DNA of 64,000 nucleotides from Kribbella sp. VKM Ac-2569 (GTDB lineage: Bacteria > Actinomycetota > Actinomycetes > Propionibacteriales > Kribbellaceae), in NCBI RefSeq assembly GCF_004216905.1, contig NZ_SGXJ01000001.1:124001-188000 (forward strand), in the 5' to 3' direction. How positions within the stretch are numbered: position 1 is the stretch's first letter; every line of letters begins with the position of its first letter. This document shows positions 16,066-34,474 of the stretch, in pieces. The notes beneath the pieces were generated by a model. It searched no databases. It saw nothing but the letters and a program-made list of their open reading frames with translations, and had not been told where the DNA came from. The translations under genes and the position numbers were made by a program.

Positions 16066-16662
16066 TCAGCGGGACTGCAGCGCGTCGAGGGCGACCGTCA
16101 TCGCGGCGGCGACGCGGAAGTCGAGGCGCTCGTCCTGGACGGTGACCCGGTAGCGGTCGCGGACCGACATCTTCCGCTCAACCGACAGCACCGGCTGCCC
16201 GCCGGACCGGTCGGTGAAGTCGAAGTGGAAGATGAACGGCAGCGGGATCTCGCCGATGAACGGCACGAAGTCCCAGACCCGCCGGACGATCGCGATCGTC
16301 TGGTTGCGCTCGGTGCCGTCCGCCTCGACGCCCGCCGCGCTGAGCTGCCAGCTGGACCGGAGCAGGCTCTTGCCGAACTCCTTCTTGAACCAGCCGATCG
16401 CCTGCCCGTCGGCGTCGTACACGTCGTACCCGGACCCGAGGTCGATGGTCTTGCGGGCCTTGAACGAGAACACCGGCTGGGTCTTGGTGTCGTCGCTGTA
16501 GAACGTCACCTGCTCCTTGAACGCCATCCGCTTCTGCTGCGCGAACGCGAGCAGCGCCCCGTCGGTGCCGTCCGGGTTGGTGGCGATCAGCTCGTACTTG
16601 TTCGCCATCAGCGTCACACGCTGCTTCATCGAAAACGCGGGCACGTACATAACTGCAGTCAT
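16066..16662 (-). CDS. LURP-one-related / tubby-scramblase-fold protein
   Basis: A 198-residue protein with the LOR fold pattern: FKEQVTFYSDDTKTQPVFSFKARKTIDLGSGYDVYDADGQAIGWFKKEFG, then a C-terminal part with DFTDRSGGQPVLSVERKMSVRDRYRVTVQ. Bacterial LOR proteins are related to phospholipid scramblases and Tubby, and their role is mostly unknown. There is no signal peptide. The ATG overlaps the stop of the bluB fusion gene as ATGA, so it is the last gene of the cobalamin operon and probably follows the same riboswitch. Whether it has any link with cobalamin cannot be said from sequence. Confidence 0.85.
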   Translation of the reverse strand: MTAVMYVPAFSMKQRVTLMANKYELIATNPDGTDGALLAFAQQKRMAFKEQVTFYSDDTKTQPVFSFKARKTIDLGSGYDVYDADGQAIGWFKKEFGKSLLRSSWQLSAAGVEADGTERNQTIAIVRRVWDFVPFIGEIPLPFIFHFDFTDRSGGQPVLSVERKMSVRDRYRVTVQDERLDFRVAAAMTVALDALQSR

Positions 16663-18014
16663 GTCGTGGAGTGTGTCAGACCACAGGCCGACGCACCGAC
16701 CTGTAGACCGCGAGCGAGCGACTCGGCACGCTCCGAGTTCTCATCCAGCTGTACGGCGAGGTGCCCGACGCCCTGCAGCGCGAGGTCGCGGGCGATCTCG
16801 ACGCCGAACTCGACCGCCTCGGCGGGTGTGCGCGCCGGCCGCCACAACACCCCGAAGTCGGCGGGCGGGCGGTCTGCCCGCAGATCGACGACCAGCGCAT
16901 CGGACTGTTGAAGTTGGCTCGCGTCGCCGCCGACGATCACGTGGACCCGCTGACCAGTCGCCGGTACGGCGTTCTGCGCGGCCTGCCGGGCGTCGTCGAC
17001 GATCGACGTGTCGCGGCGGCCCCATTCCTCGTGGTGGATCGCCCACGACAGCGGGCGCCGCTTCGCCCATCCGGAACGCACGAGTTCGGGCGCCGCGGCG
17101 AACTCGTCGACGTACCCGACGCACAGGTAGCCGACCAGTTCGACGTGGGCGGGCAGATCGAGGACCGCGGCGACCTCACCGGGTTCGAAGAACGAGACCC
17201 AGCCGACGCCGAGGCCCTCGGCGCGGGCGGCGAGCCAGAGGTTCTGGATCGCGATCGCCGCGGAGAACATGGTCGTTCGCGGATCCGCATGCCGGCCGAG
17301 GACGTGCCGTCCGCCGCGACCGGGATCGCAGGTCACCGCGAGGTTCAGCGGGGTGTCCAGGATCGCCGCGATCTTGAGTCCGTCGAACGCGGCGCGCCGG
17401 TCCTCGGGGAGGGATGCGGCGAACGCGTCCCGTTGCGCGGTCGCGAGATCGTGCACCTTGCGGCGGGTCGCGAGGTCGCGGATCACCAGAAAGTCCCACG
17501 GTTGGCTCAGCCCGACACTCGGCGCCCGATGCGCCGCCTCCAGCACCCGCCCGAGCGTCGCGTCGTCAACCGGCAGGTCCAGGAATCCCCGCCGTACGTC
17601 ACGCCGCTCAGCAATCACCCGCTGCACAACCGCGCGATCCCGCACGTCATACCCAGCCGCCCGCTGCACACCGATCGCGATGGTGGCGTTGGGGGTTTGC
17701 CGTTTCGGGATGAGGAGCTGGGCGCCGGTTGCGAGGACAGCTGCTTCGGCGACGCTCGGGGTTCCTTTGAGCTGCTCGACCTGGGCGCTCGGGGTTGGTA
17801 CCGGCTGTTCGGCGAGTTCCTCGTTCGAGAAGGTGCGGAGCTCTGCGCCTAGCTGCGCGGCCAGCTGTTGCAGTGCGGGCTCGTTCTCCTTGCCGGTGAT
17901 CGTGACGACCAGTCGGACCTCGCCCGCGAGTTCGTGGAGGGCTGTGGTCGCTAGGTCCTGCAGTTCGGCGTACGGCGTACCGGTGCGGAGTCCGACGCCG
18001 ATTACGAGGTTCAC
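16659..18014 (-). CDS. bluB: CbiG C-terminal domain / BluB fusion with unassigned C-terminal extension
   Basis: A 451-residue protein with three parts. Residues 1-120 match the CbiG C-terminal/CobE family (NLVIGVGLRTGTPYAELQDL; LVVTITGKENEPALQQLA), which assists corrin ring chemistry. Residues 130-330 are a BluB flavin destructase, which makes 5,6-dimethylbenzimidazole from FMNH2 and O2 (VIAERRDVRRGFLDLPVDD; AAHRAPSVGLSQPWDFLVI; AARAEGLGVGWVSFFEPGEVAAVLDLP). Residues 335-451 are not recognised with confidence; a stretch EFGVEIARDLALQGVGHLAV faintly recalls the helical region of CobT. GTG at 18014 overlaps the cobB stop as GTGA, so the open frame further upstream is not coding. The fusion links corrin assembly and lower-ligand synthesis. 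Confidence 0.85.
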   Translation of the reverse strand: MNLVIGVGLRTGTPYAELQDLATTALHELAGEVRLVVTITGKENEPALQQLAAQLGAELRTFSNEELAEQPVPTPSAQVEQLKGTPSVAEAAVLATGAQLLIPKRQTPNATIAIGVQRAAGYDVRDRAVVQRVIAERRDVRRGFLDLPVDDATLGRVLEAAHRAPSVGLSQPWDFLVIRDLATRRKVHDLATAQRDAFAASLPEDRRAAFDGLKIAAILDTPLNLAVTCDPGRGGRHVLGRHADPRTTMFSAAIAIQNLWLAARAEGLGVGWVSFFEPGEVAAVLDLPAHVELVGYLCVGYVDEFAAAPELVRSGWAKRRPLSWAIHHEEWGRRDTSIVDDARQAAQNAVPATGQRVHVIVGGDASQLQQSDALVVDLRADRPPADFGVLWRPARTPAEAVEFGVEIARDLALQGVGHLAVQLDENSERAESLARGLQVGASACGLTHSTT

Positions 18015-19354
18015 CGGGCGCGCTCGCGGGCGGCGGCGACCAGGCGGGCCGGGACATCTGGGGTAGCGGTCCAGTGCAGGTGCAGGTACGACGCATGGAC
18101 GTGGGGAAGGGTGATTCCTTCGACGCCGCTGGGCAGATGCCAGGCCGGTTGTACGTCGGCCTCGAGGTCGACCGCGGTGCGGTGGAATTCGTGGCCGCGC
18201 ACCCGCCGTCCTTCGTCGAAGAACGCGGTGCTGGTCGCGGCGATCGCCGTACGGTAGCCGAGCGTGAGGCGGCCGGTCATGCGGGCCGTCGCCGGGAGTA
18301 CGCCGGTCATCGGGTGACCGTCGAGTTCGCGGCAGAGGTAGAGCAGGCCGGCGCATTCGGCGATCACAGGGAGACCGTTGGCGACCGCGGCGGCCACTTG
18401 TTTGCGCAGCTCGACGTTCGCGGAGAGCGCCTCGGCATGCAGCTCGGGGAAGCCGCCACCGAGGTAGAGAGCAGCGGTTGCCTCGGGCAACGCGTCGACG
18501 AGCGGGTCGAAGGTGACGACATCCGCACCAGCGGCGGTGAGGAGCTCGGTCGTCTCGGTGTAATGGAACGAAAACACCGGCCCCGCCGCGACAGCCACCA
18601 CCGGCCGTGCCCCCGCGTTGGGGTTGAGCTCGACGGTTGGGGTCCAAGGAGTGGTGCTGTGGGGTGAGGCGGAGTTGGCAGCGGCGATGACAGCTTGTAG
18701 GTCTACGCCTTGGCGGACCAGTTCTGCGGCGGCATCTACGGCTTGTTCGGCTTGGGTGTGTTGTTCGTTGGCTGGGATCAGGCCGAGGTGGCGGCTGGGG
18801 ACCGTCAGGCGGGTGTCGCGGCGGAGGACGCCCAGGACCGGTACGCCGGTCGGCGCGACCCCGGCTCGTACTTCGGCCTCGTGCCGGTCCGAACCCACCT
18901 TGTTCAAGATCACCCCGACGATGCGGATCTCGGTGTCGAAGGCAACGAAACCTTGGACGACCGCCCCGACGCTCCGACCCGCCGCCGATGCGTCGACCAC
19001 CAGCACCACCGGTGCCTTCAGCAACTTCGCGACGTGGGCCGTGGACGAGAAACCTTCCGTCCCGAGCGCACCGTCGTACAGCCCCATCACACCCTCGACC
19101 ACAGCCAGGTCCGCACCGGCGGAACCGTGCTCGAACAGCGGCCCCACCAGTTCCTCCCCCGACAGCATCGGATCGAGGTTCCGGCCCGGCCGCCCGGTCG
19201 CGACCGCGTGGAACCCGGGATCGATGTAGTCCGGCCCCACCTTGAACCCGGCCACCACATGCCCGGCCCGCCGCAACGCCGCCATCAACCCGACAGCAAC
19301 CGTCGTCTTCCCCGCCCCCGAAGCCGGTGCCGCAACCACCACCCGCGGAATCAT
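18011..19354 (-). CDS. cobB: Cobyrinate / hydrogenobyrinate a,c-diamide synthase
   Basis: A 447-residue glutamine-dependent amidotransferase that amidates the a and c side chains of the corrin ring using ATP. The N-terminal dethiobiotin-synthetase-like domain has the P-loop APASGAGKTTVAVGL at about 8-22, then VGPDYIDPGFH and VEGVMGLYDG. The C-terminal GATase domain has GGFPELHA and the nucleophile Cys in AECAGLLYL, with a terminal histidine segment (HVHASYLHLHW). ATG at 19354 (MIPRVVVAAP) lies 14 bases after the cobO stop; the upstream open frame is in a region overlapping cobO and is not used. Third gene of the riboswitch operon. Confidence 0.95.
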   Translation of the reverse strand: MIPRVVVAAPASGAGKTTVAVGLMAALRRAGHVVAGFKVGPDYIDPGFHAVATGRPGRNLDPMLSGEELVGPLFEHGSAGADLAVVEGVMGLYDGALGTEGFSSTAHVAKLLKAPVVLVVDASAAGRSVGAVVQGFVAFDTEIRIVGVILNKVGSDRHEAEVRAGVAPTGVPVLGVLRRDTRLTVPSRHLGLIPANEQHTQAEQAVDAAAELVRQGVDLQAVIAAANSASPHSTTPWTPTVELNPNAGARPVVAVAAGPVFSFHYTETTELLTAAGADVVTFDPLVDALPEATAALYLGGGFPELHAEALSANVELRKQVAAAVANGLPVIAECAGLLYLCRELDGHPMTGVLPATARMTGRLTLGYRTAIAATSTAFFDEGRRVRGHEFHRTAVDLEADVQPAWHLPSGVEGITLPHVHASYLHLHWTATPDVPARLVAAARERAR

Positions 19355-19368
19355 CGTGGTTTCCCGGG

Positions 19369-19983
19369 TTACCACTCGATGCCCTTCTGGCCCTTCTGGC
19401 CGGCGTCCATCGGGTGCTTGAGTTTTGTCATCTGGGTGGCGAGGTCGGCGGCCTCGAGGAGCTTCGGATCGGCGTCGCGGCCGGTGATCACGACGTACTG
19501 GTGGCCGGGACGGTTGACGAGCGTGTCGACGACCTCGTCGACGTCGACCCAGCCCCACTTCATCGGATACGTGAACTCGTCGAGTACGTACAGGTCATGG
19601 GTCTCGGCGGCCAACCGGCGCTGGATCTCGCGCCAGCCCTCGACCGCGTCGGCGGCGTGGTCCTCCTCGGTGCCGGCCTTGCGGGACCAGCTCCAGCCCT
19701 CGCCCATCTTGTGCCACTCGACCGGCCCGCCCTCACCGGTCGATTCGTGCAGCCGGCCAAGCGCCCTGAACGCGCCCTCCTCGCCGACCTTCCACTTCGC
19801 GCTCTTCACGAACTGGAAGACCCCGAGGTTCCAGCCCTGGTTCCAGGCCCGCAGCGCCATCCCGAACGCCGCCGTCGACTTCCCCTTCATCTCGCCGGTG
19901 TGCACCATCAGCAGCGGACGGTTGCGACGCTGGCGGGTGGTCAGGCCGTCTTCCGGTACGGCGACCGGCTGTCCCTTCGGCAT
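19369..19983 (-). CDS. cobO: Cob(I)yrinic acid a,c-diamide adenosyltransferase (CobO/CobA/BtuR type)
   Basis: A 204-residue ATP:corrinoid adenosyltransferase that attaches the upper 5'-deoxyadenosyl ligand. The P-loop is HTGEMKGKSTAAFG near residues 29-42. QFVKSAKWKVGEEGAF, the Trp-rich GEGWSWSRKAGTEED and the Walker B-like YVLDEFTYPMKWGWVD are diagnostic of the CobO family. ATG at 19983 follows the chelatase stop by one base (TGAGATG), so translation is coupled. Confidence 0.95.
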   Translation of the reverse strand: MPKGQPVAVPEDGLTTRQRRNRPLLMVHTGEMKGKSTAAFGMALRAWNQGWNLGVFQFVKSAKWKVGEEGAFRALGRLHESTGEGGPVEWHKMGEGWSWSRKAGTEEDHAADAVEGWREIQRRLAAETHDLYVLDEFTYPMKWGWVDVDEVVDTLVNRPGHQYVVITGRDADPKLLEAADLATQMTKLKHPMDAGQKGQKGIEW

Positions 19984-19984
19984 C

Positions 19985-22003
19985 TCAGGCCGCCTTCCGT
20001 TCGGTGACCGTACGGATGAGGTTGCCTGCGACAACGTCTCCGAGGTCGAGGTACTCCGCTCCGAGGTCCGCGGCAAGCTCCGCGGAGAGGCCGAGACGGA
20101 TACCGCGGCGCGGCTCGCAGTCCACCACGACGGTCGCGATCCCGCGCTGCGCCAGCCATCCGGCGGCCTGGCGGGCGCGGGCGAACGCATTGTCGCCGTG
20201 GGTCGCGCGGCCGTCGGTCACAAGGACGAGGAGCGGGCGCCGGCGCGGGTCGCGGATCGCGGCGATCCGCAGTACCTCGGCCGCTTGCAGCAGCCCTTCG
20301 GCAAGCGGCGTACGTCCACCGGTCGGGAGCGATTCGAGCCGTCGTACGGCGGTCTCGACGCTGCCCGTCGGCGGCAGCGCGACCGTCGCGGCGGCACCGG
20401 CGAACGTCACGAGGCCGACCGTGTCGCGGCGCTGGTACGCGTCGAGGAGCAGCGAGACGATCGCGGTCTTCACCTCACCCATCCGCTTCTTCGTCCCCAT
20501 CGAACCGGAGGCGTCGACGCAGAACAGCACGAGATTTCCCTCCCGCCCTTCCCGCACCGCGAGCCGCACGTCGTCCGCCCGAACCACCAGCCCTGGGCCG
20601 CTCCGCCCGCGAACTTTCTGGTACGGCGCTGCGTTGCGCATCGTCCCCAACAGATGCGGCCTGCCAGCCTCCCGCCCGACCCGACCGCGATCGCCCACAA
20701 CACGCCCTACCTCGGTGATCGCCCGCGACCGCCGCCCCGCGACACCGGCCCCAGCCACCTGAACACTCAGCAGCCGAGCCTTGTACGGCGCAGAACTCCC
20801 CACAACCTCACCACTCCCGGTGGGTTGAGTACCACCGGGCTGACTGTCGGTGGATGGCGTGGCGGCGTCCGCCTGCTCGTACGATCCGTCCGCGCCATCC
20901 CCTTCTGAACCGCCTGAGCCGCCCGGCCCGCCAGGGTCGGTGGGGTCTGACGGGTCGTCGTCGGGGTCTTCGGGTGGGGTGCTGTTGTTGATTGCTTCTT
21001 CGAGTTGCTGGTCGTCCAGGCCGGGGGCGTCGAAGGGGTTCCGCCGCCGGCGGTGTGGGAGGGCAAGTTTGGCGGCGGCGCGGACATCGTCGACCTCGAC
21101 AACGGTGCGGCCCGACCAGGCTGCGTGGGCGACCGCCGTACGTGCCGTGACCAGGTCGGCGCGCATCCCATCGACGTCGAACGACGCGCAGATCTCCGCG
21201 ATCTGCCGGAGCGCCGAGTCGGTCAGGATCACCTCGGTCAGCAGGTCGCGCGCCTTCACGATGCGTTCGGCGAGTTCCCGCTGCGCACCGTCGTACCGGG
21301 CGACGAAGTTCTCGGGATCTGCCTCATAGGTCAGCCGCGCGCGCATCACCTCCACGCGTACGGCGGGATCGCGGCTGGCGACCACGTCGACGGTCAGCCC
21401 GAACCGGTCGAGGAGCTGTGGCCGGAGCTCGCCCTCCTCGGGGTTCATCGTGCCGACGAGCACAAACCGCGCCGGGTGCGTGACCGAGACGCCGTCCCGC
21501 TCGACGGTCGCGCGCCCCATCGCGGCGGCGTCGAGGAGCACGTCGACCAGGTGGTCGTGGAGCAGGTTGACCTCGTCGACGTACAGCAACCCGCGATGCG
21601 CCGCGGCGAGCAGACCAGGCTCGTACGCCGTGATGCCTTCCGCGAGCGCCTTCTCCAGATGCAGCGACCCGAGCACCCGATCCTCGGTCGCCCCCACCGG
21701 CAACTCCACCAACCGCGCGGCACGCACCGACCGCTCCCCCGCATGCGGGCCGTCAGGACAGGACGAGTCTGGACGGTCGGGGTCGCAGGAGAAGCGGCAG
21801 TCGGGTACGACGTCCACGGGGGGCAGGATCTCGGTGAGGGCGCGGACGGCGGTCGACTTCGCCGTACCCTTCTCGCCGCGGATCAGCACGCCGCCGATGG
21901 CCGGCGAGATCGCCGCCAGGATCAGCGCGAGCTGGAGATCGTCCATTCCGACGATCGCGGTGAACGGGAACGAGTTCGACGGTCCGCTGAACGGAGCCCG
22001 CAT
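19985..22003 (-). CDS. Fused ChlI/ChlD-type cobaltochelatase subunit (AAA + VWA)
   Basis: A 672-residue protein joining the AAA+ ATPase and VWA subunits of a magnesium/cobalt-chelatase complex. The AAA part (1-340) has Walker A GEKGTAKST near 44-52, Walker B LLYVDEVNLLHD and sensor GTMNPEEGELRPQLLDRFG, plus a cysteine cluster (PDCRFSCDPDRPDSSC) seen in such proteins. An acidic Pro/Gly-rich linker (about 345-420) leads to a VWA domain with the MIDAS motif DASGSMG near residue 495. With CobN it would insert cobalt into the corrin ring (aerobic pathway) at the cost of ATP. It is the first gene of the operon; AAAGGGA precedes ATG, and a cobalamin riboswitch occupies the leader. Confidence 0.92.
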   Translation of the reverse strand: MRAPFSGPSNSFPFTAIVGMDDLQLALILAAISPAIGGVLIRGEKGTAKSTAVRALTEILPPVDVVPDCRFSCDPDRPDSSCPDGPHAGERSVRAARLVELPVGATEDRVLGSLHLEKALAEGITAYEPGLLAAAHRGLLYVDEVNLLHDHLVDVLLDAAAMGRATVERDGVSVTHPARFVLVGTMNPEEGELRPQLLDRFGLTVDVVASRDPAVRVEVMRARLTYEADPENFVARYDGAQRELAERIVKARDLLTEVILTDSALRQIAEICASFDVDGMRADLVTARTAVAHAAWSGRTVVEVDDVRAAAKLALPHRRRRNPFDAPGLDDQQLEEAINNSTPPEDPDDDPSDPTDPGGPGGSGGSEGDGADGSYEQADAATPSTDSQPGGTQPTGSGEVVGSSAPYKARLLSVQVAGAGVAGRRSRAITEVGRVVGDRGRVGREAGRPHLLGTMRNAAPYQKVRGRSGPGLVVRADDVRLAVREGREGNLVLFCVDASGSMGTKKRMGEVKTAIVSLLLDAYQRRDTVGLVTFAGAAATVALPPTGSVETAVRRLESLPTGGRTPLAEGLLQAAEVLRIAAIRDPRRRPLLVLVTDGRATHGDNAFARARQAAGWLAQRGIATVVVDCEPRRGIRLGLSAELAADLGAEYLDLGDVVAGNLIRTVTERKAA

Positions 22004-22023: not shown

Positions 22024-22205
22024 GAGCGGGTATCCACGCCCGCTACGGCCGGTACGCCGGCGCACGACAATCGCGAGCCTGCGGACGGCAGCAGATGTCC
22101 TGGCTTCCGGGCCACGTTGATGCTCATGGCTCCCGGTCACAGTGGCGGGACCGCCCCGGACTCCCAGCACGCTGGTCACCGGTGTTCCTCCACAACCGTC
22201 GGCCC
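22024..22205 (-). ncRNA. Cobalamin riboswitch upstream of the chelatase operon
   Basis: Read on the minus strand, the leader holds the conserved cobalamin aptamer core: a GGAACACCGGTG segment, GGAGTCCGGGGCGGTCCC, then CCGCCACTGTGACCGGGAG (B12 box region around 22120-22160) and, after a variable arm, AAGCCAGGACATCTGC. It is followed by a hairpin, stem 22026-22030 with 22039-22043 and an 8-base loop (plus strand TATCCACG), 22 bases before the ATG. The loop's GGAT can pair with GTCC of the L5 loop, as in the known L5-L13 kissing interaction, so control is probably translational repression of the chelatase operon by adenosylcobalamin. Confidence 0.9.
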
Positions 22206-22279
22206 GATCATGGCACATCCGCCCGCGCCACAACGCACCCCGGTCACGTGGGCCTCACCACGTACCGTGTGCCATGATC
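22206..22279. promoter_or_regulatory. 12-base inverted repeat at the presumed cobalamin-operon promoter
   Basis: GATCATGGCACA (22206-22217) and TGTGCCATGATC (22268-22279) are perfect complements 50 bases apart, just upstream of the riboswitch. On the minus strand the proximal copy contains CATGAT, which could serve as a -10 element immediately before the aptamer. The repeat may bind a dimeric regulator, form part of the promoter, or terminate the GntR gene transcript that enters from the right. None of these is shown by sequence alone. Confidence 0.4.
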
Positions 22280-23169: not shown

Positions 23170-24780
23170 GTGAACCAAACAGGGTTCGACCGCCGCTCGT
23201 TCCTGAAGTACTCCGGTGCGCTCGGCGCAGCCGCGACGATCACTGGTGGATTGTCGGCCTGCAGCAGCGGCCCCGCCTCGACCGGAGCCGTCGGCGCCGG
23301 AGCGGACACCGGCCTGGTCACCGCGGTGATCGGCTACGGGAACAACCAGAGCTGGGATCCGACCATGAGTGCCTCCGCCTTCACGATGGCGGCGATGCAG
23401 CACATCTACGAGGGCCTGCTCGACACCGACCCGATCACCCGGCAGCCGTACGCCGCTCTGGGCACGGAGGTACCGGCCGACCTGAACGCCACCTCCTGGA
23501 AGTTCACCTTGCGGGACGGGGCGAAGTGGCACGACGGCGAGTCGGTCACCGCCGACGACGTCGTCTTCACCTTCCAGCGGATCCTCGACCCGAAGCTGAA
23601 GGTGCTCACCTACAACTTCTTCGCCAGCTGGCTGAAGGAGGTCAAGAAGGTCGACGACAAGTCCGTGGAACTGGTCCTGAACTTCCCGTTCCCCGACGGG
23701 GCGCCCCGGCTGACCATCGCGAAGATCATGCCCAAGCACGTCTTCTCCCAGGCCGGAGCCTGGGACCTGGCCAAGAACGGCAAGGCGGTCGGGTCCGGTC
23801 CCTACAAACAGGTCTCGCACCAGCCGAAGTCGAACACCACCTTCGAGTCCTTCGCGGACTACAACGGCCCCCGCCCGGCGGCGTTCAAGAAGATGAACTG
23901 GCTGAGCATCGTCGACTCCTCCGCCCGGGTCGCGAAGATCTCCGGCGGCAGCGCCGAGGCGCAACTCTCCGACAACATCCCGTACGCCAACATCGAGCAA
24001 CTGAAGACCTCGGGCCTCACGGTCGAGGGCGGCAAGGGGATGAACCACCTGTTCCTGATGTTCAACACCGCGACCAAGCCGTTCGACGACGTCCGGGTCC
24101 GGCAGGCGCTGTTCACCGCGATCGACACCCAGAAGATGATCGAGGTCGCGCTCAAGGGCCGCGGCAAGGCGAGTACGTCGTTCCTGAACGAGGAGAACCC
24201 GGCCTACGCCAAGGCGAAGACCGTCTACAGCTACGACCCGGCGAAGGCCAAGGCGTTGCTCGCCGAGGCCGGCGTGACGAACCTGTCGATCAACCTGCTC
24301 GCGGTGAACGTGAGCTGGATCGTCGACTGCCTGCCGACCATCGCCGCCTCCTGGAACGCGATCGGCGTGAAGACCACGCTCGAGCCGCAGGACACCGCAG
24401 CGGTGTTCACCAAGATGGACCAGCACGCCGACTACCAGGTGGTCGCGGCGGCGTCGAACCCGAACCAGTTCGGCGCCGACGCGGACCTGATCCTTCGCTA
24501 CAACTACACCCAGGGTGGATCGTGGATGAAGTACACGCGCTGGGAGACCAGTGCCGGCGCCAAGGTGATCTTCGCCAAGATGGACGAGGCCGTCCGGGCC
24601 ACCGACGCGGACACCAGGACCAAGCTGACCCACGAGTACCTCGATCTGGTCGCCGAACAGGCGGTGCTGTATCCCGTCGTCCACACCGAGTTGATGACGG
24701 CCTGGGACTCCAAGAAGCTGAGCGGGATCAAGGCGCAGCCCTATCCGGGGATCAACCTGCTGCAGGCGAAGCGGGCCTGA
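23170..24780 (+). CDS. ABC transporter substrate-binding protein, family 5 (oligopeptide/dipeptide type)
   Basis: A 536-residue secreted SBP_bac_5 lipoprotein. The N-terminus FDRRSFLKYSGALGAAATITGGLSACSSG combines a twin-arginine motif (DRRSFLK) with a lipobox LSAC, so export as a Tat lipoprotein is likely. The mature part has the family pattern WKFTLRDGAKWHDGESVTADDVVFTFQRILDP near residue 115 and VGSGPYK later. GTG at 23170 has GGAGG five bases upstream. The ligand need not be a peptide: members bind opines, glycosides, nickel and other compounds. The DapA-family aldolase downstream suggests a sugar acid or amino-acid derivative. Confidence 0.94.
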   Translation: MNQTGFDRRSFLKYSGALGAAATITGGLSACSSGPASTGAVGAGADTGLVTAVIGYGNNQSWDPTMSASAFTMAAMQHIYEGLLDTDPITRQPYAALGTEVPADLNATSWKFTLRDGAKWHDGESVTADDVVFTFQRILDPKLKVLTYNFFASWLKEVKKVDDKSVELVLNFPFPDGAPRLTIAKIMPKHVFSQAGAWDLAKNGKAVGSGPYKQVSHQPKSNTTFESFADYNGPRPAAFKKMNWLSIVDSSARVAKISGGSAEAQLSDNIPYANIEQLKTSGLTVEGGKGMNHLFLMFNTATKPFDDVRVRQALFTAIDTQKMIEVALKGRGKASTSFLNEENPAYAKAKTVYSYDPAKAKALLAEAGVTNLSINLLAVNVSWIVDCLPTIAASWNAIGVKTTLEPQDTAAVFTKMDQHADYQVVAAASNPNQFGADADLILRYNYTQGGSWMKYTRWETSAGAKVIFAKMDEAVRATDADTRTKLTHEYLDLVAEQAVLYPVVHTELMTAWDSKKLSGIKAQPYPGINLLQAKRA

Positions 24781-24791
24781 GGTAACCGACT

Positions 24792-25751
24792 GTGGCCGTC
24801 ATCGTCAGAATGCTGGTTCGCCGGCTGCTGCTGCTGGTTCCGTTGCTGCTCGGCATCATCGCGTTCGTCTTCCTGGTGATGCGGTTCTCCAACAACGATC
24901 CGGCGGTCGCGTACTTCCAGGGCGCCAACCCGACCGAGGAGCAGTTGCACAGCTTCCGGCAGGAGAACGGTCTGCTGGACCCGCTGCCACTGCGCTATGT
25001 GCACTTCGTCGGTGACCTGCTGCACGGCGACCTGGGCACCAGCGTGCTGACGAAGGCGCCGGTGCTCCAGTCGGTCACCACCGCGATGCCCCTGACGTTC
25101 CAGCTCACCCTGTTGGGACTGCTGATCGCACTGGTGCTGGCCTTGCTGCTCGGTGTCGTCGCCGCGATCTTCAGGGACCGCTGGCCGGACCAGGCGATCC
25201 GTCTGGTCTCACTGATCGGCGTGGCCGCGCCTTCGTTCTGGCTCGCACTACTGATGATCCAGTACCTCGCCGTCGACCGCGGCTGGTTTCCGCCGAGCGG
25301 TTACGTGAATCCGGCCGACGGGATCGCGCCCTGGCTGCGGACGATGGCACTGCCGGCGCTGGCGCTGTCCTTGCCGGTGGCCGCGCAACTGACCCGGATC
25401 ATTCGTACGTCGGTCGTCGAGGAGCTCGACAAGGACTATGTCCGGACCGCCATCGGCAGCGGCCTGCCGCCGGTCGTGGTGGTCGGACGCAATGTTCTGC
25501 GGAACGCGCTCATCAACCCGCTCACCGTGCTCGGCCTGCGGATCGGGTACCTGCTCGGCGGAGCCGTCGTGATCGAGCAGATCTTCACGCTGCCGGGGAT
25601 GGGCACGCTGATGATCAATGCCGTCCGCGACGGTGATCCGGCCGTGGTGCAGGGCGTCGTACTGACCATCGCGGTCGGCTTCGTGGTGGTCAACCTCGTC
25701 GTCGATGTGCTGTACCTGCTGGTCAACCCGCGACTGAGGAGCGCTGCGTGA
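24792..25751 (+). CDS. ABC transporter permease (DppB/OppB type)
   Basis: A 319-residue permease with six hydrophobic helices and the DppB signature: VRMLVRRLLLLVPLLLGIIAFVFLVMR, YVHFVGDLLHGDLGTS, and the coupling loop RIIRTSVVEELDKDYVRTAIGSGLPPVVVVGRNVLRNALIN. It starts at GTG 11 bases after the binding-protein stop and ends overlapping the next gene. With the downstream fused permease it forms the transmembrane channel. Confidence 0.94.
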   Translation: MAVIVRMLVRRLLLLVPLLLGIIAFVFLVMRFSNNDPAVAYFQGANPTEEQLHSFRQENGLLDPLPLRYVHFVGDLLHGDLGTSVLTKAPVLQSVTTAMPLTFQLTLLGLLIALVLALLLGVVAAIFRDRWPDQAIRLVSLIGVAAPSFWLALLMIQYLAVDRGWFPPSGYVNPADGIAPWLRTMALPALALSLPVAAQLTRIIRTSVVEELDKDYVRTAIGSGLPPVVVVGRNVLRNALINPLTVLGLRIGYLLGGAVVIEQIFTLPGMGTLMINAVRDGDPAVVQGVVLTIAVGFVVVNLVVDVLYLLVNPRLRSAA

Positions 25752-27715
25752 TGCGCGCACGACTGGCCGGGCAACTCTCCCGTCCGGGGATCAACTTCAA
25801 GCGGCTGCCGCCGGCGGCCTGGCTCGCTGTCGCGGTCCTCGCGGTGGTGATCCTGGCCGCGGTGCTCGCTCCGCTGCTGACGCCGTACGACATCTTGACG
25901 CAGGAGGACGCCGGCGGCGGCCCGTCGGGGGCGCACTGGTTCGGGCTCGACAGCGCGAACCGTGACATCTTCACCCGGCTCGTGTACGGCGCCCGCTGGT
26001 CGCTGATGATCGGTCTCGGCGCGACCGCGCTCGCACTGACCGCGGGCGCGATCGTCGGAGCGGTCGCGGCCACCTCCCGCAAGGCGGTCGACGAGACCGT
26101 GATGCGGCTCCTCGACGTCGTGATGGCATTCCCCGGGATCGCGCTGGCCGCCGTCCTGGTGGCGGTGTTCGGTGGATCCGTCCCGGTCCTCGTGATCGCG
26201 ATCGCCTTCCTCTACACGCCGCCCGTCGCCAGGGTGGTCCGCGCCAACGTGCTCGCGCAGTACGGCGAGGACTACGTGGTCGCGGAGAAGATCATCGGCG
26301 CCCGCACCCCGCACATCCTGCTCCGGCACGTGGCGATCAACTGTGCCGCTCCGGTGCTGGTGTTCTGCACGGTGATGGTTGCCGACGCCATCGTCTTCGA
26401 GGCGTCGCTGTCCTTCATCGGGGCCGGGGTGCGACCGCCGGAGCCTTCCTGGGGCTCGGTGATTGCCGACGGCAAGAACATGGTGCTGCTGGGTGGCTGG
26501 TGGGCGACGGTGTTCCCGGGACTGCTGATCCTGATCACCGTGCTGTCCCTGAACATCCTGTCCGAGGCCGTCTCCGACGCGTGGGCGGCGCCGGGCGGGC
26601 GTCGGGCCGCGAGCAAGAAGCAGGTCAAGGACGCGCTGGAGAGCGCGCAGCCGGGCTCCGGCGAACTCGTCGAGCTTCCCGGTCTGGACCTGGCGGCGAC
26701 GCGGCTGCGGGAACGAGCGCGGCCCTTGCCGGACGGTGAACCCATACTGTCCGTCCAGCAGCTGGCGATCGGCTTCGAAGGCCGGCACGACGGGGTGGAC
26801 GTCGTCGACGGGATCAGCTTCGACGTACGGCCCGGCGAGGTGCTCGGTCTGGTCGGCGAGTCCGGCTGCGGCAAGTCGCTGACCGCGCTCGCCGTGATGG
26901 GGCTGGAGCCGCGGGGCGCCCGGATCCGTGGCCGGATCCGGTTCGACGGCAAGGACCTGCTGAGTCTGCGGCGCTCGGAGCGGCGCCGGCTGCTCGGTCA
27001 CGACATGGCGATGATCTACCAGGACGCGCTGTCCTCGCTGAACCCGGCGATGACGATCAAGGCGCAGTTGAAGCAGGTGGTTCGCCGCGGCGGACGGCGT
27101 ACTCCGGCAGACCTGCTGGAACTGGTCGGACTGGATCCCGAGCGCACCCTGACCAGCTACCCGCACGAGCTGTCCGGTGGTCAGCGCCAGCGGGTGCTGA
27201 TCGCGACGGCGTTGTCCCGGGAACCGAAGCTGATCGTCGCCGACGAGCCGACCACGGCACTCGACGTCACCGTGCAGGCGCAGGTGATCCAGCTGCTGCT
27301 GCGGCTGCGAGCCGAACTCGGCTTCGCCCTGATCCTGGTGTCGCACGACCTGGCACTGGTCGCCGACGTCACCGATCGGGTGGTGGTGATGTACGGCGGT
27401 CAGATCGTCGAGACCGGTGTCACGGCGGACCTGGTCGGCGAGCCCGCGCACCATTACGCCCGTGGCCTGCTCGGATCGGTCCTGTCCCTGGAGTCCGGCG
27501 CGGCCCGGCTGACCCAGATCCGTGGCGTGGTGCCCTCGCCGGCCGACTTCCCTGCCGGGTGCCGATTCGCCGACCGGTGCCCGATGGTCACCGATCTGTG
27601 CCGCGACACCGCCCCCGAACTGACGGGCCGCCCGGCGCGGCATCTGGTGGCCTGCCATCACCCGGCAGTCACCCTCGACCTTCCCGAGCCGCTGGAGAAG
27701 GAGGCGCTGCGATGA
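25748..27715 (+). CDS. Fused ABC permease-ATPase (DppC + DppD)
   Basis: A single 655-residue frame joins two importer subunits normally encoded separately. Residues 1-285 are a DppC-type permease (six helices, LDSANRDIFTRLVYGARWSLMIG, coupling loop YGEDYVVAEKIIGARTPHILLRH). A linker near 285-335 precedes a DppD-type ATPase: Walker A GESGCGKSLTALAVMG near 370, signature ELSGGQRQRVLIATAL, Walker B LIVADEPTTALDVT, and the C-terminal cysteine motif CRFADRCPM for the usual Fe-S or zinc site. The start is GTG 25748 or ATG 25751, both overlapping the dppB-like stop. No frameshift or internal stop is needed, so the fusion appears genuine. Confidence 0.93.
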   Translation: MMRARLAGQLSRPGINFKRLPPAAWLAVAVLAVVILAAVLAPLLTPYDILTQEDAGGGPSGAHWFGLDSANRDIFTRLVYGARWSLMIGLGATALALTAGAIVGAVAATSRKAVDETVMRLLDVVMAFPGIALAAVLVAVFGGSVPVLVIAIAFLYTPPVARVVRANVLAQYGEDYVVAEKIIGARTPHILLRHVAINCAAPVLVFCTVMVADAIVFEASLSFIGAGVRPPEPSWGSVIADGKNMVLLGGWWATVFPGLLILITVLSLNILSEAVSDAWAAPGGRRAASKKQVKDALESAQPGSGELVELPGLDLAATRLRERARPLPDGEPILSVQQLAIGFEGRHDGVDVVDGISFDVRPGEVLGLVGESGCGKSLTALAVMGLEPRGARIRGRIRFDGKDLLSLRRSERRRLLGHDMAMIYQDALSSLNPAMTIKAQLKQVVRRGGRRTPADLLELVGLDPERTLTSYPHELSGGQRQRVLIATALSREPKLIVADEPTTALDVTVQAQVIQLLLRLRAELGFALILVSHDLALVADVTDRVVVMYGGQIVETGVTADLVGEPAHHYARGLLGSVLSLESGAARLTQIRGVVPSPADFPAGCRFADRCPMVTDLCRDTAPELTGRPARHLVACHHPAVTLDLPEPLEKEALR

Positions 27716-28731
27716 CAGAGCCGGTGCTCGAACTGTCGGACGTGCACGTCGTGCACCGAGCCAGGTCCGGTGGTCTCTTCAGCAGAGACCGGGTCTATGC
27801 GCTGACCGGGGCCGACCTGACCGTCGCCGCCGGTGAGACCGTCGGCGTGGTCGGCGAGTCCGGCTGCGGGAAGTCCACGTTGGCCAAGGTCATGGTCGGT
27901 GTCCAGCGACCGACCGAGGGCAGGGCCTCGTTCCGGGGCCAGGACATCTGGTCGATGAAACCGGCCGAACGCCGCGAGGCCATCGGCGCCGGGACCGGGA
28001 TGATCTTCCAGGACCCTTCGACGGCACTGAATCGCCGGCTGCCCGTTCATCGGGTACTGCGTGATCCGCTCGACGTGCACCGTCACGGCACCGTTGCCCA
28101 GCGCAACGAACGGGTGCGGGAGCTGATGGCGCTGGTGGGGCTGCCGCGGAGCGTCTCCGACGCCCTGCCCGGCCAGTTGTCGGGCGGCCAGCGACAGCGC
28201 GTCGCGATCGCCCGGGCACTGGCACTCGAGCCGTCGCTCCTGGTCGCCGACGAGCCGACCAGCGCTCTCGACGTCTCCGTGCGGGCGCAGATCCTCAACC
28301 TGCTGCTGGACCTCAAGGAACGCCTCGGCCTGGCCATGGTGTTCGTCTCGCACGACATCCAGACCGTCCGCCGGATGAGTGACCGGGTGGTCACCATGTA
28401 CCTCGGCCGGATCGTCGAGCAGGCACCGGCGGCCGGTATCGCCCGGCAGGCGCGGCATCCGTACACCCGCGCGCTGTTCTCGGCGACCCCCGGCCTGATC
28501 TCGCCGATCGACCCGATCCCGCTGGTCGGGCCGGTGCCGTCGGCCACCCGGCCGCCGAGCGGCTGCCCGTTCCGGACCCGCTGCTGGAAGGCCGACGACA
28601 CCTGCTCCGGTTCGATGCCCGAGTTCGAGTCCGATGCCGCCGCCCCGGCGCACCTGTTCCGCTGCTATCACCCCGTGGTCGCGCGCGAGTCCACCGATGA
28701 CCTGATCACCCAAGCTTTGGAGCGTTCATGA
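27712..28731 (+). CDS. ABC transporter ATP-binding protein (DppF/OppF type)
   Basis: A 339-residue ATPase: Walker A GESGCGKST near residue 48, signature QLSGGQRQRVAIARALA, Walker B LLVADEPTSALDVS, H-loop FVSHDIQTV, and the C-terminal CPFRTRCWKADDTC motif of the oligopeptide ATPases. ATG at 27712 overlaps the stop of the fusion gene as ATGA (GGAGAAGGAGG upstream). It pairs with the ATPase half of the fused protein to form the heterodimeric motor. Confidence 0.95.
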   Translation: MTEPVLELSDVHVVHRARSGGLFSRDRVYALTGADLTVAAGETVGVVGESGCGKSTLAKVMVGVQRPTEGRASFRGQDIWSMKPAERREAIGAGTGMIFQDPSTALNRRLPVHRVLRDPLDVHRHGTVAQRNERVRELMALVGLPRSVSDALPGQLSGGQRQRVAIARALALEPSLLVADEPTSALDVSVRAQILNLLLDLKERLGLAMVFVSHDIQTVRRMSDRVVTMYLGRIVEQAPAAGIARQARHPYTRALFSATPGLISPIDPIPLVGPVPSATRPPSGCPFRTRCWKADDTCSGSMPEFESDAAAPAHLFRCYHPVVARESTDDLITQALERS

Positions 28732-34169: not shown

Positions 34170-34300
34170 GTTCCTTCCCGGGGTATCCACGCCCCGACTT
34201 CAGGTACGACGGCGGCAGTTCCTGACTCCCCTTCACGGGTCACAGTGGCGGGACCGCCCCGGACTCACACCGGGTTCCTGCTGATGCCGTCGATTGACGT
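34170..34300 (-). ncRNA. Cobalamin riboswitch upstream of cobN
   Basis: On the minus strand the leader contains GGAACCCGGTGTGAGTCC, GGGGCGGTCCCGCCACTGTG, ACCCGTGAAGGGGAGTCAGG and AACTGCC, the same conserved core as the riboswitch at 22024-22205. The expression-platform hairpin has stem 34179-34183 with 34192-34196 and an 8-base loop identical to that of the other riboswitch (plus strand TATCCACG). It directly precedes GGGAAGGAA, the cobN ribosome binding site, which argues for translational control. TAGAGT at about 34308-34313 (minus strand) could be the -10. Confidence 0.92.
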
Positions 34301-34474
34301 CGCGACTCTATCCGACGCCGCCGCAGCGCATTGCAGAGCCAACGCTTGATGCTTGACCGCGCTAGACCACGAGTGTTAGGCCGGATGAAGAGGGCTTGAC
34401 TCGCTGACCCCCTCCAGCAGCGCACAACGTTGCTTCAGCGCAAGTCGTTCGACTTTCGACTGAAGGAGATACCT
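34301..34474. other. Divergent intergenic region between cobN riboswitch and haloperoxidase-like gene
   Basis: No coding frame is supported here. For the plus strand TTGACC at about 34356 with an 18-base-spaced weak -10 is possible but unconvincing. The right end carries AAGGAGAT, the ribosome binding site of the gene at 34475. Confidence 0.4.

Follow-up and report, generated by a model that had tools for sequence, protein, structure and literature searches.

The window analysed, a stretch of 64,000 nucleotides from Kribbella sp. VKM Ac-2569, carries on its minus strand a frame of 451 residues (18014-16659), with a GTG start at 18014 and a stop codon at 16661-16659. The encoded protein is tripartite, consisting of a CobE-like CbiG_C domain (residues 3-114; 17673..18008, minus strand; Pfam PF01890, E 4e-27, 95.5 bits), a BluB or 5,6-dimethylbenzimidazole synthase domain (residues 122-326, with the usual tail reaching to about residue 332; 17037..17651, minus strand; TIGR02476) and, at the C-terminus, some 115 residues without family assignment. 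The Pfam and TIGR02476 matches bear out a sequence-only reading of this DNA, which had described the frame as a CbiG_C/BluB fusion with an extra C-terminal region. Overlaps of four bases at both ends place the gene inside a tightly packed run: its start is shared (GTGA) with cobB (18011..19354, minus strand; CbiA and GATase_3), and its stop (ATGA) with a downstream gene (16066..16662, minus strand) for which no Pfam family was found at 1e-5. On the far side of cobB, the same strand encodes a corrinoid adenosyltransferase, cobO (19369..19983; PF02572, E 5e-57), and a ChlI/VWA chelatase-type subunit (19985..22003; Mg_chelatase and VWA). The chelatase-cobO-cobB-fusion run is headed by a cobalamin riboswitch (22073..22235, minus strand; Rfam RF00174, 42.1 bits against a cut-off of 31.5), and the RF00174 search placed a second one just before cobN (34197-34337, minus strand). 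According to the ORF reading, an oligopeptide-type ABC transporter block on the plus strand (23170-28731) interrupts the B12 genes of the window.

To describe the distribution of this arrangement, loci were retrieved from named genomes, nearly all of them Kribbella. The fusion gene was present in all 38 Kribbella genomes searched, and its C-terminus was seen in 37; in the sole exception, G070, the gene runs off the contig end, so that the C-terminus can be taken as the real gene end. The order chelatase-cobO-cobB-fusion-next gene-ABC genes was kept in all 18 loci with long flanks, with cobO going undetected in 11 of these by a crude neighbour query. In all 18 of these Kribbella loci the gene at 16066-16662 came directly after the fusion, with 82-97% identity; it is a possible functional partner of the fusion protein. 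Among 395 genomes of the class, no other joining of CbiG_C to BluB was found, a part of the weak matches to the N-terminus that fell in long frames of high GC content having been inspected. In the open-access literature, no paper treating Kribbella and BluB together was found. One locus titled Streptomyces sp. SID13031 (L061) has the Kribbella-type gene and neighbourhood and probably represents a misnamed Kribbella.

The CbiG_C domain of the fusion is the only one in the genome, and CbiG_N (PF11760) was not found in the genome by a search that was positive in seven control genomes. The closest solved structures to this domain were those of CobE (2w6k/2w6l). On these two grounds, CobE-like is the most fitting name for the first domain. 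CobE itself (PDB 2w6k/2w6l; 3by5) is likewise a single CbiG_C domain without CbiG_N but, unlike the Kribbella protein, is not joined to BluB. The presence of CobN, together with a fused CobI-CobJ scoring above precorrin-type cut-offs, is in keeping with a predicted late-cobalt, aerobic route. The acetaldehyde extrusion previously ascribed to this domain is a CbiG reaction and is probably inapplicable, since the domain is CobE-like and no CbiG_N was found in the genome. The accompanying argument that the fused activities belong to distant steps persists only in weakened form, because the CobE-like domain has no firmly assigned reaction and because cobO and cobB belong to the same riboswitch-headed run. 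In the fusion, synthesis of the lower ligand is linked to a CobE-like domain, which may also offer a clue to the role of CobE.

The BluB domain scored 262 bits with TIGR02476, against an equivalog cut-off of 150, and matched S. meliloti BluB (2isj) with an E value of 3e-56. The RRDVR and GWVSFF motifs of the Kribbella domain aligned with RRDVR and GWVSIF of 2isj, so that the active-site Asp and Ser of the S. meliloti enzyme (D32 and S167) have counterparts in Kribbella. Judged from its residues, the Kribbella BluB looks intact and is a predicted DMB synthase. In the 2isj alignment the usual BluB tail ends near residue 332. A phylogenetic tree placed the Kribbella BluB in one group with the BluB parts of a second clade of BluB-CobT fusions (support 95/95); free BluBs from the same order fell outside this group, as did the propionibacterial fusions. 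Identities of the Kribbella BluB were about 60-72% to nearly all second-clade fused BluBs (52% to that of L069), about 50% to free BluBs and about 38-47% to the propionibacterial fusions. Furthermore, the best BluB matches outside the genus in the 395 class genomes all lay in long fusion frames.

Residues 333-451 matched no Pfam or NCBIfam family, CobT models included, and a PDB sequence-profile search with the C-terminus returned chance FleN matches only. This region comprises a linker of variable length that carries on the one found in BluB-CobT fusions (residues 333-354; 16953..17018, minus strand), and a domain of about 97 residues (residues 355-451; 16662..16952, minus strand), to which AlphaFold2, VIA, a core-only profile and hhalign assign a putative CobT origin. 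We consider it likely that the domain is a reduced and catalytically dead CobT, a judgement that covers origin and lack of catalysis jointly and does not extend to its role. The Kribbella linker RRPLAWAVHQEEWGQRGLPGVAPTSILDDAV resembles the linkers of BluB-CobT fusions such as RPLSWAVHRDHYGRRGLPGEEPTSLLEETI, a likeness that extends to RGLPGxxPTSxL and is also seen when RGLPGEEPTSLLEETI is set against RGLPGVAPTSILDDAV. When 297 class genomes were searched with a profile of the C-terminus, the matches in real genes outside the genus were BluB-CobT fusions only, with L069 (E 0.0028) and L072 (E 0.0065) matched at the same place in the CobT half. Six of the nine matches outside the genus (L065, L066, L067, L070, L071, and L073) were antisense frames of polynucleotide phosphorylase and were set aside. 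Such antisense frames scored like real CobTs, which calls for caution in six-frame searches of high-GC DNA.

A core-only profile, built without the BluB tail, gave 116 CobT ORFs much higher scores than the 2,555 others in the sequence set, and nearly all top matches fell at a CobT offset of about 105-170, in fused and free CobTs alike. Because the rank test ignores the relatedness of the sequences and counts each as independent, the P value is not to be taken literally, and the consistent position in CobT is the stronger point. Some of the antisense polynucleotide phosphorylase frames equalled CobT in core-profile score, although it was their earlier scores that had brought them into the set. 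Profile-profile alignment of the core with CobT by hhalign gave a P value of 3.7e-5 and probabilities of 40-71%; none of 60 column-shuffled CobT profiles reached this score, and reversed CobT scored lower. Global hhalign gave poorer scores and unstable registers, and for some members single-sequence alignments scored little differently from shuffled sequences, L021 falling below the shuffled range. The register is secure for the long helix only, the preceding strands being aligned differently by HMMER, BLOSUM, and hhalign. The segment that matches CobT is the helix EFGVEIARDLALQGVGHLAV, which the sequence-only reading had already singled out as CobT-like. A first impression of the helix-strand-helix pattern had pointed to an N-terminal-type aminopeptidase M17 (macro-like) domain. 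This identity was rejected as extremely improbable, with hhalign probabilities of 3-5% against the three M17_N domains of the genome, compared with the above values for CobT, and with no M17 chain among the Foldseek and VIA rows shown.

The AlphaFold2 model of the C-terminal domain had a pLDDT of 80 and a pTM of 0.78. In a VIA comparison with this model, rows 1-17 were all CobT or ArsAB (Z 6.5-7.8; best unrelated structure 6.5), and Foldseek ranked CobT 1j33 second with a probability of 0.92. Z values below 8 can be reached by unrelated folds, and the origin would therefore not be settled by the fold on its own. In the full-length AlphaFold2 model, BluB was poorly predicted (mean pLDDT 59, from a thin alignment), and this model was not used for domain packing. 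In its predicted fold the Kribbella core resembles CobT (Salmonella, Thermus) and ArsAB, and one sequence segment is in common, but these proteins have about 350 residues, whereas the core has about 97 and lacks the phosphate loop and the catalytic glutamate region. A block invariant in Kribbella, FGVLWRPAR, has no counterpart in CobT. This block, the Z values below 8 and the lack of any family match would all suit an unrelated small α/β domain that the BluB gene had gained and whose likeness to CobT is convergent; linker continuity, the BluB phylogeny and the core-profile matches at one CobT position agree against such a domain, which we regard as improbable. As to origin, the pseudo-CobT suggested by the sequence-only reading is thus upheld by linker, core-profile position, fold match and BluB grouping together, whereas the DMB-passing adaptor of the same reading is one possible role among several.

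The motifs of catalysis were absent from the domain. GEMGIGNTT, already noted as missing from the present protein, occurred in none of 30 Kribbella C-termini versus 31 of 31 separate Kribbella CobTs, and LGEG, in the catalytic-base region, was not found in any C-terminal sequence shown in the alignment. E174 of Salmonella CobT presumably lies in GEMGIGNTT and E317 in the LGEG region. Functional roles of both glutamates have been described (PMC9561151). Median dN/dS, as simple pairwise Nei-Gojobori values, was 0.26 for the C-terminal domain, close to the 0.31 of the CobE-like domain, and 0.109 for BluB; for residues 383-416, which cover the FGVLWRPAR-helix block, it was 0.107 and equal to that of BluB. 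The C-terminal domain is under purifying selection and is not drifting. Invariant alignment columns and dN/dS defined FGVLWRPAR and the helix EAVEFGVEIARDLALQ (residues 387-413; 16776..16856, minus strand) as the best-conserved block, and the lack of a CobT match for FGVLWRPAR suggests that a binding face has newly arisen, and not that an old one is fading. A decaying sequence without function would be expected to vary, as the linker length and the extreme tail do, and to exceed BluB in dN/dS, as the domain does overall. Nevertheless, the domain was kept in all 37 genomes in which it was visible, its central block is as constrained as BluB and no internal stops were present, which renders decay very unlikely.

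A complete separate CobT was found in 38 of 38 Kribbella genomes, which answers the question, left by the sequence-only reading, of whether a cobT lies elsewhere. In the tree, this CobT was moderately supported as lying within the fused CobTs, where L123 was its neighbour (84/80). SUMT directly follows the fusion in L072, as seen by eye, just as it follows the free cobT in Kribbella, and no BluB remnant was seen by eye upstream of cobT in L001. Genome G369 was considered as an intermediate with a partly reduced CobT half; the half had seemed truncated in the match table, and the CobT proved complete. The simplest history, with an order of events that we infer, would be duplication of a fusion followed by reciprocal loss. 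An ancestor may have carried the actinobacterial BluB-CobT fusion, and the pair would have separated in the Kribbella line, the complete CobT staying beside cysG/SUMT. BluB would have relocated to the riboswitch-headed cobB operon and become joined to the CobE-like domain, and the CobT half still attached to it would have lost its N-terminal region, the phosphate loop (GEMGIGNTT) and the catalytic end. The residual CobT core is predicted to fold still and would have stayed under selection. In several complete Kribbella genomes (e.g., G088, G091, and G103), about 200 kb separate the free cobT from the BluB gene, a linkage that has been kept.

As the likeliest role of the reduced CobT, we tentatively propose that it is a non-catalytic module for docking or self-association, which would hold BluB near the separate CobT, or near the CobE/CobB end, so that DMB could be handed on. 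In Salmonella CobT, both chains of the dimer contribute to the base pocket (PMC9561151), so that a CobT-like partner piece on BluB becomes plausible. Such a piece could hold BluB against the free CobT and so preserve the hand-over after the split. A more specific version, in which the dead core binds free CobT and perhaps completes or caps a mixed CobT dimer, keeping DMB channelled, is more doubtful. Docking to CobT is itself hardly more likely than a role in BluB self-association or spacing. The CobT-derived piece might also serve BluB alone, through stability, oligomerisation or spacing from the CobE-like domain, without contact with CobT. The domain folds alone in prediction, BluB and CobT both have predicted dimer interfaces, and a role of the fusion spacer in dimers was proposed by the authors of PMC4657239. 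However, free BluBs manage without such a domain, and selection acts most strongly on a single block, as would rather be expected of a binding face. Neither of these points decides the matter, and a role confined to BluB appears somewhat less likely than the one proposed.

The closest studied system is BluB/CobT2 of Propionibacterium freudenreichii, which makes and activates DMB with little free DMB left and for which channelling has been reported (PMC4657239). In that protein BluB is likewise N-terminal to the CobT-type part and both steps reside in one chain (PMC4657239), but it belongs to another clade, and the Kribbella protein instead has a reduced, dead CobT part and a CobE-like domain in front. 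The second-clade fusions, of the Streptomyces type and others (L068, L072, and L094-L123), have the BluB clade, the linker and the position of the CobT part in common with Kribbella. Unlike the Kribbella protein, they contain a full CobT, in which GEMGIGNTT and LGEG are mostly present, and those scanned had no CbiG_C in front. Metabolite channelling in B12 synthesis has been studied with the BluB-CobT fusion, and Kribbella represents the reverse natural experiment, in which the pair has probably been split and yet a dead partner piece is kept under selection genus-wide. If this piece docks CobT, channelling can survive gene fission, and the fusion protein would provide a clean, testable pseudo-enzyme adaptor.
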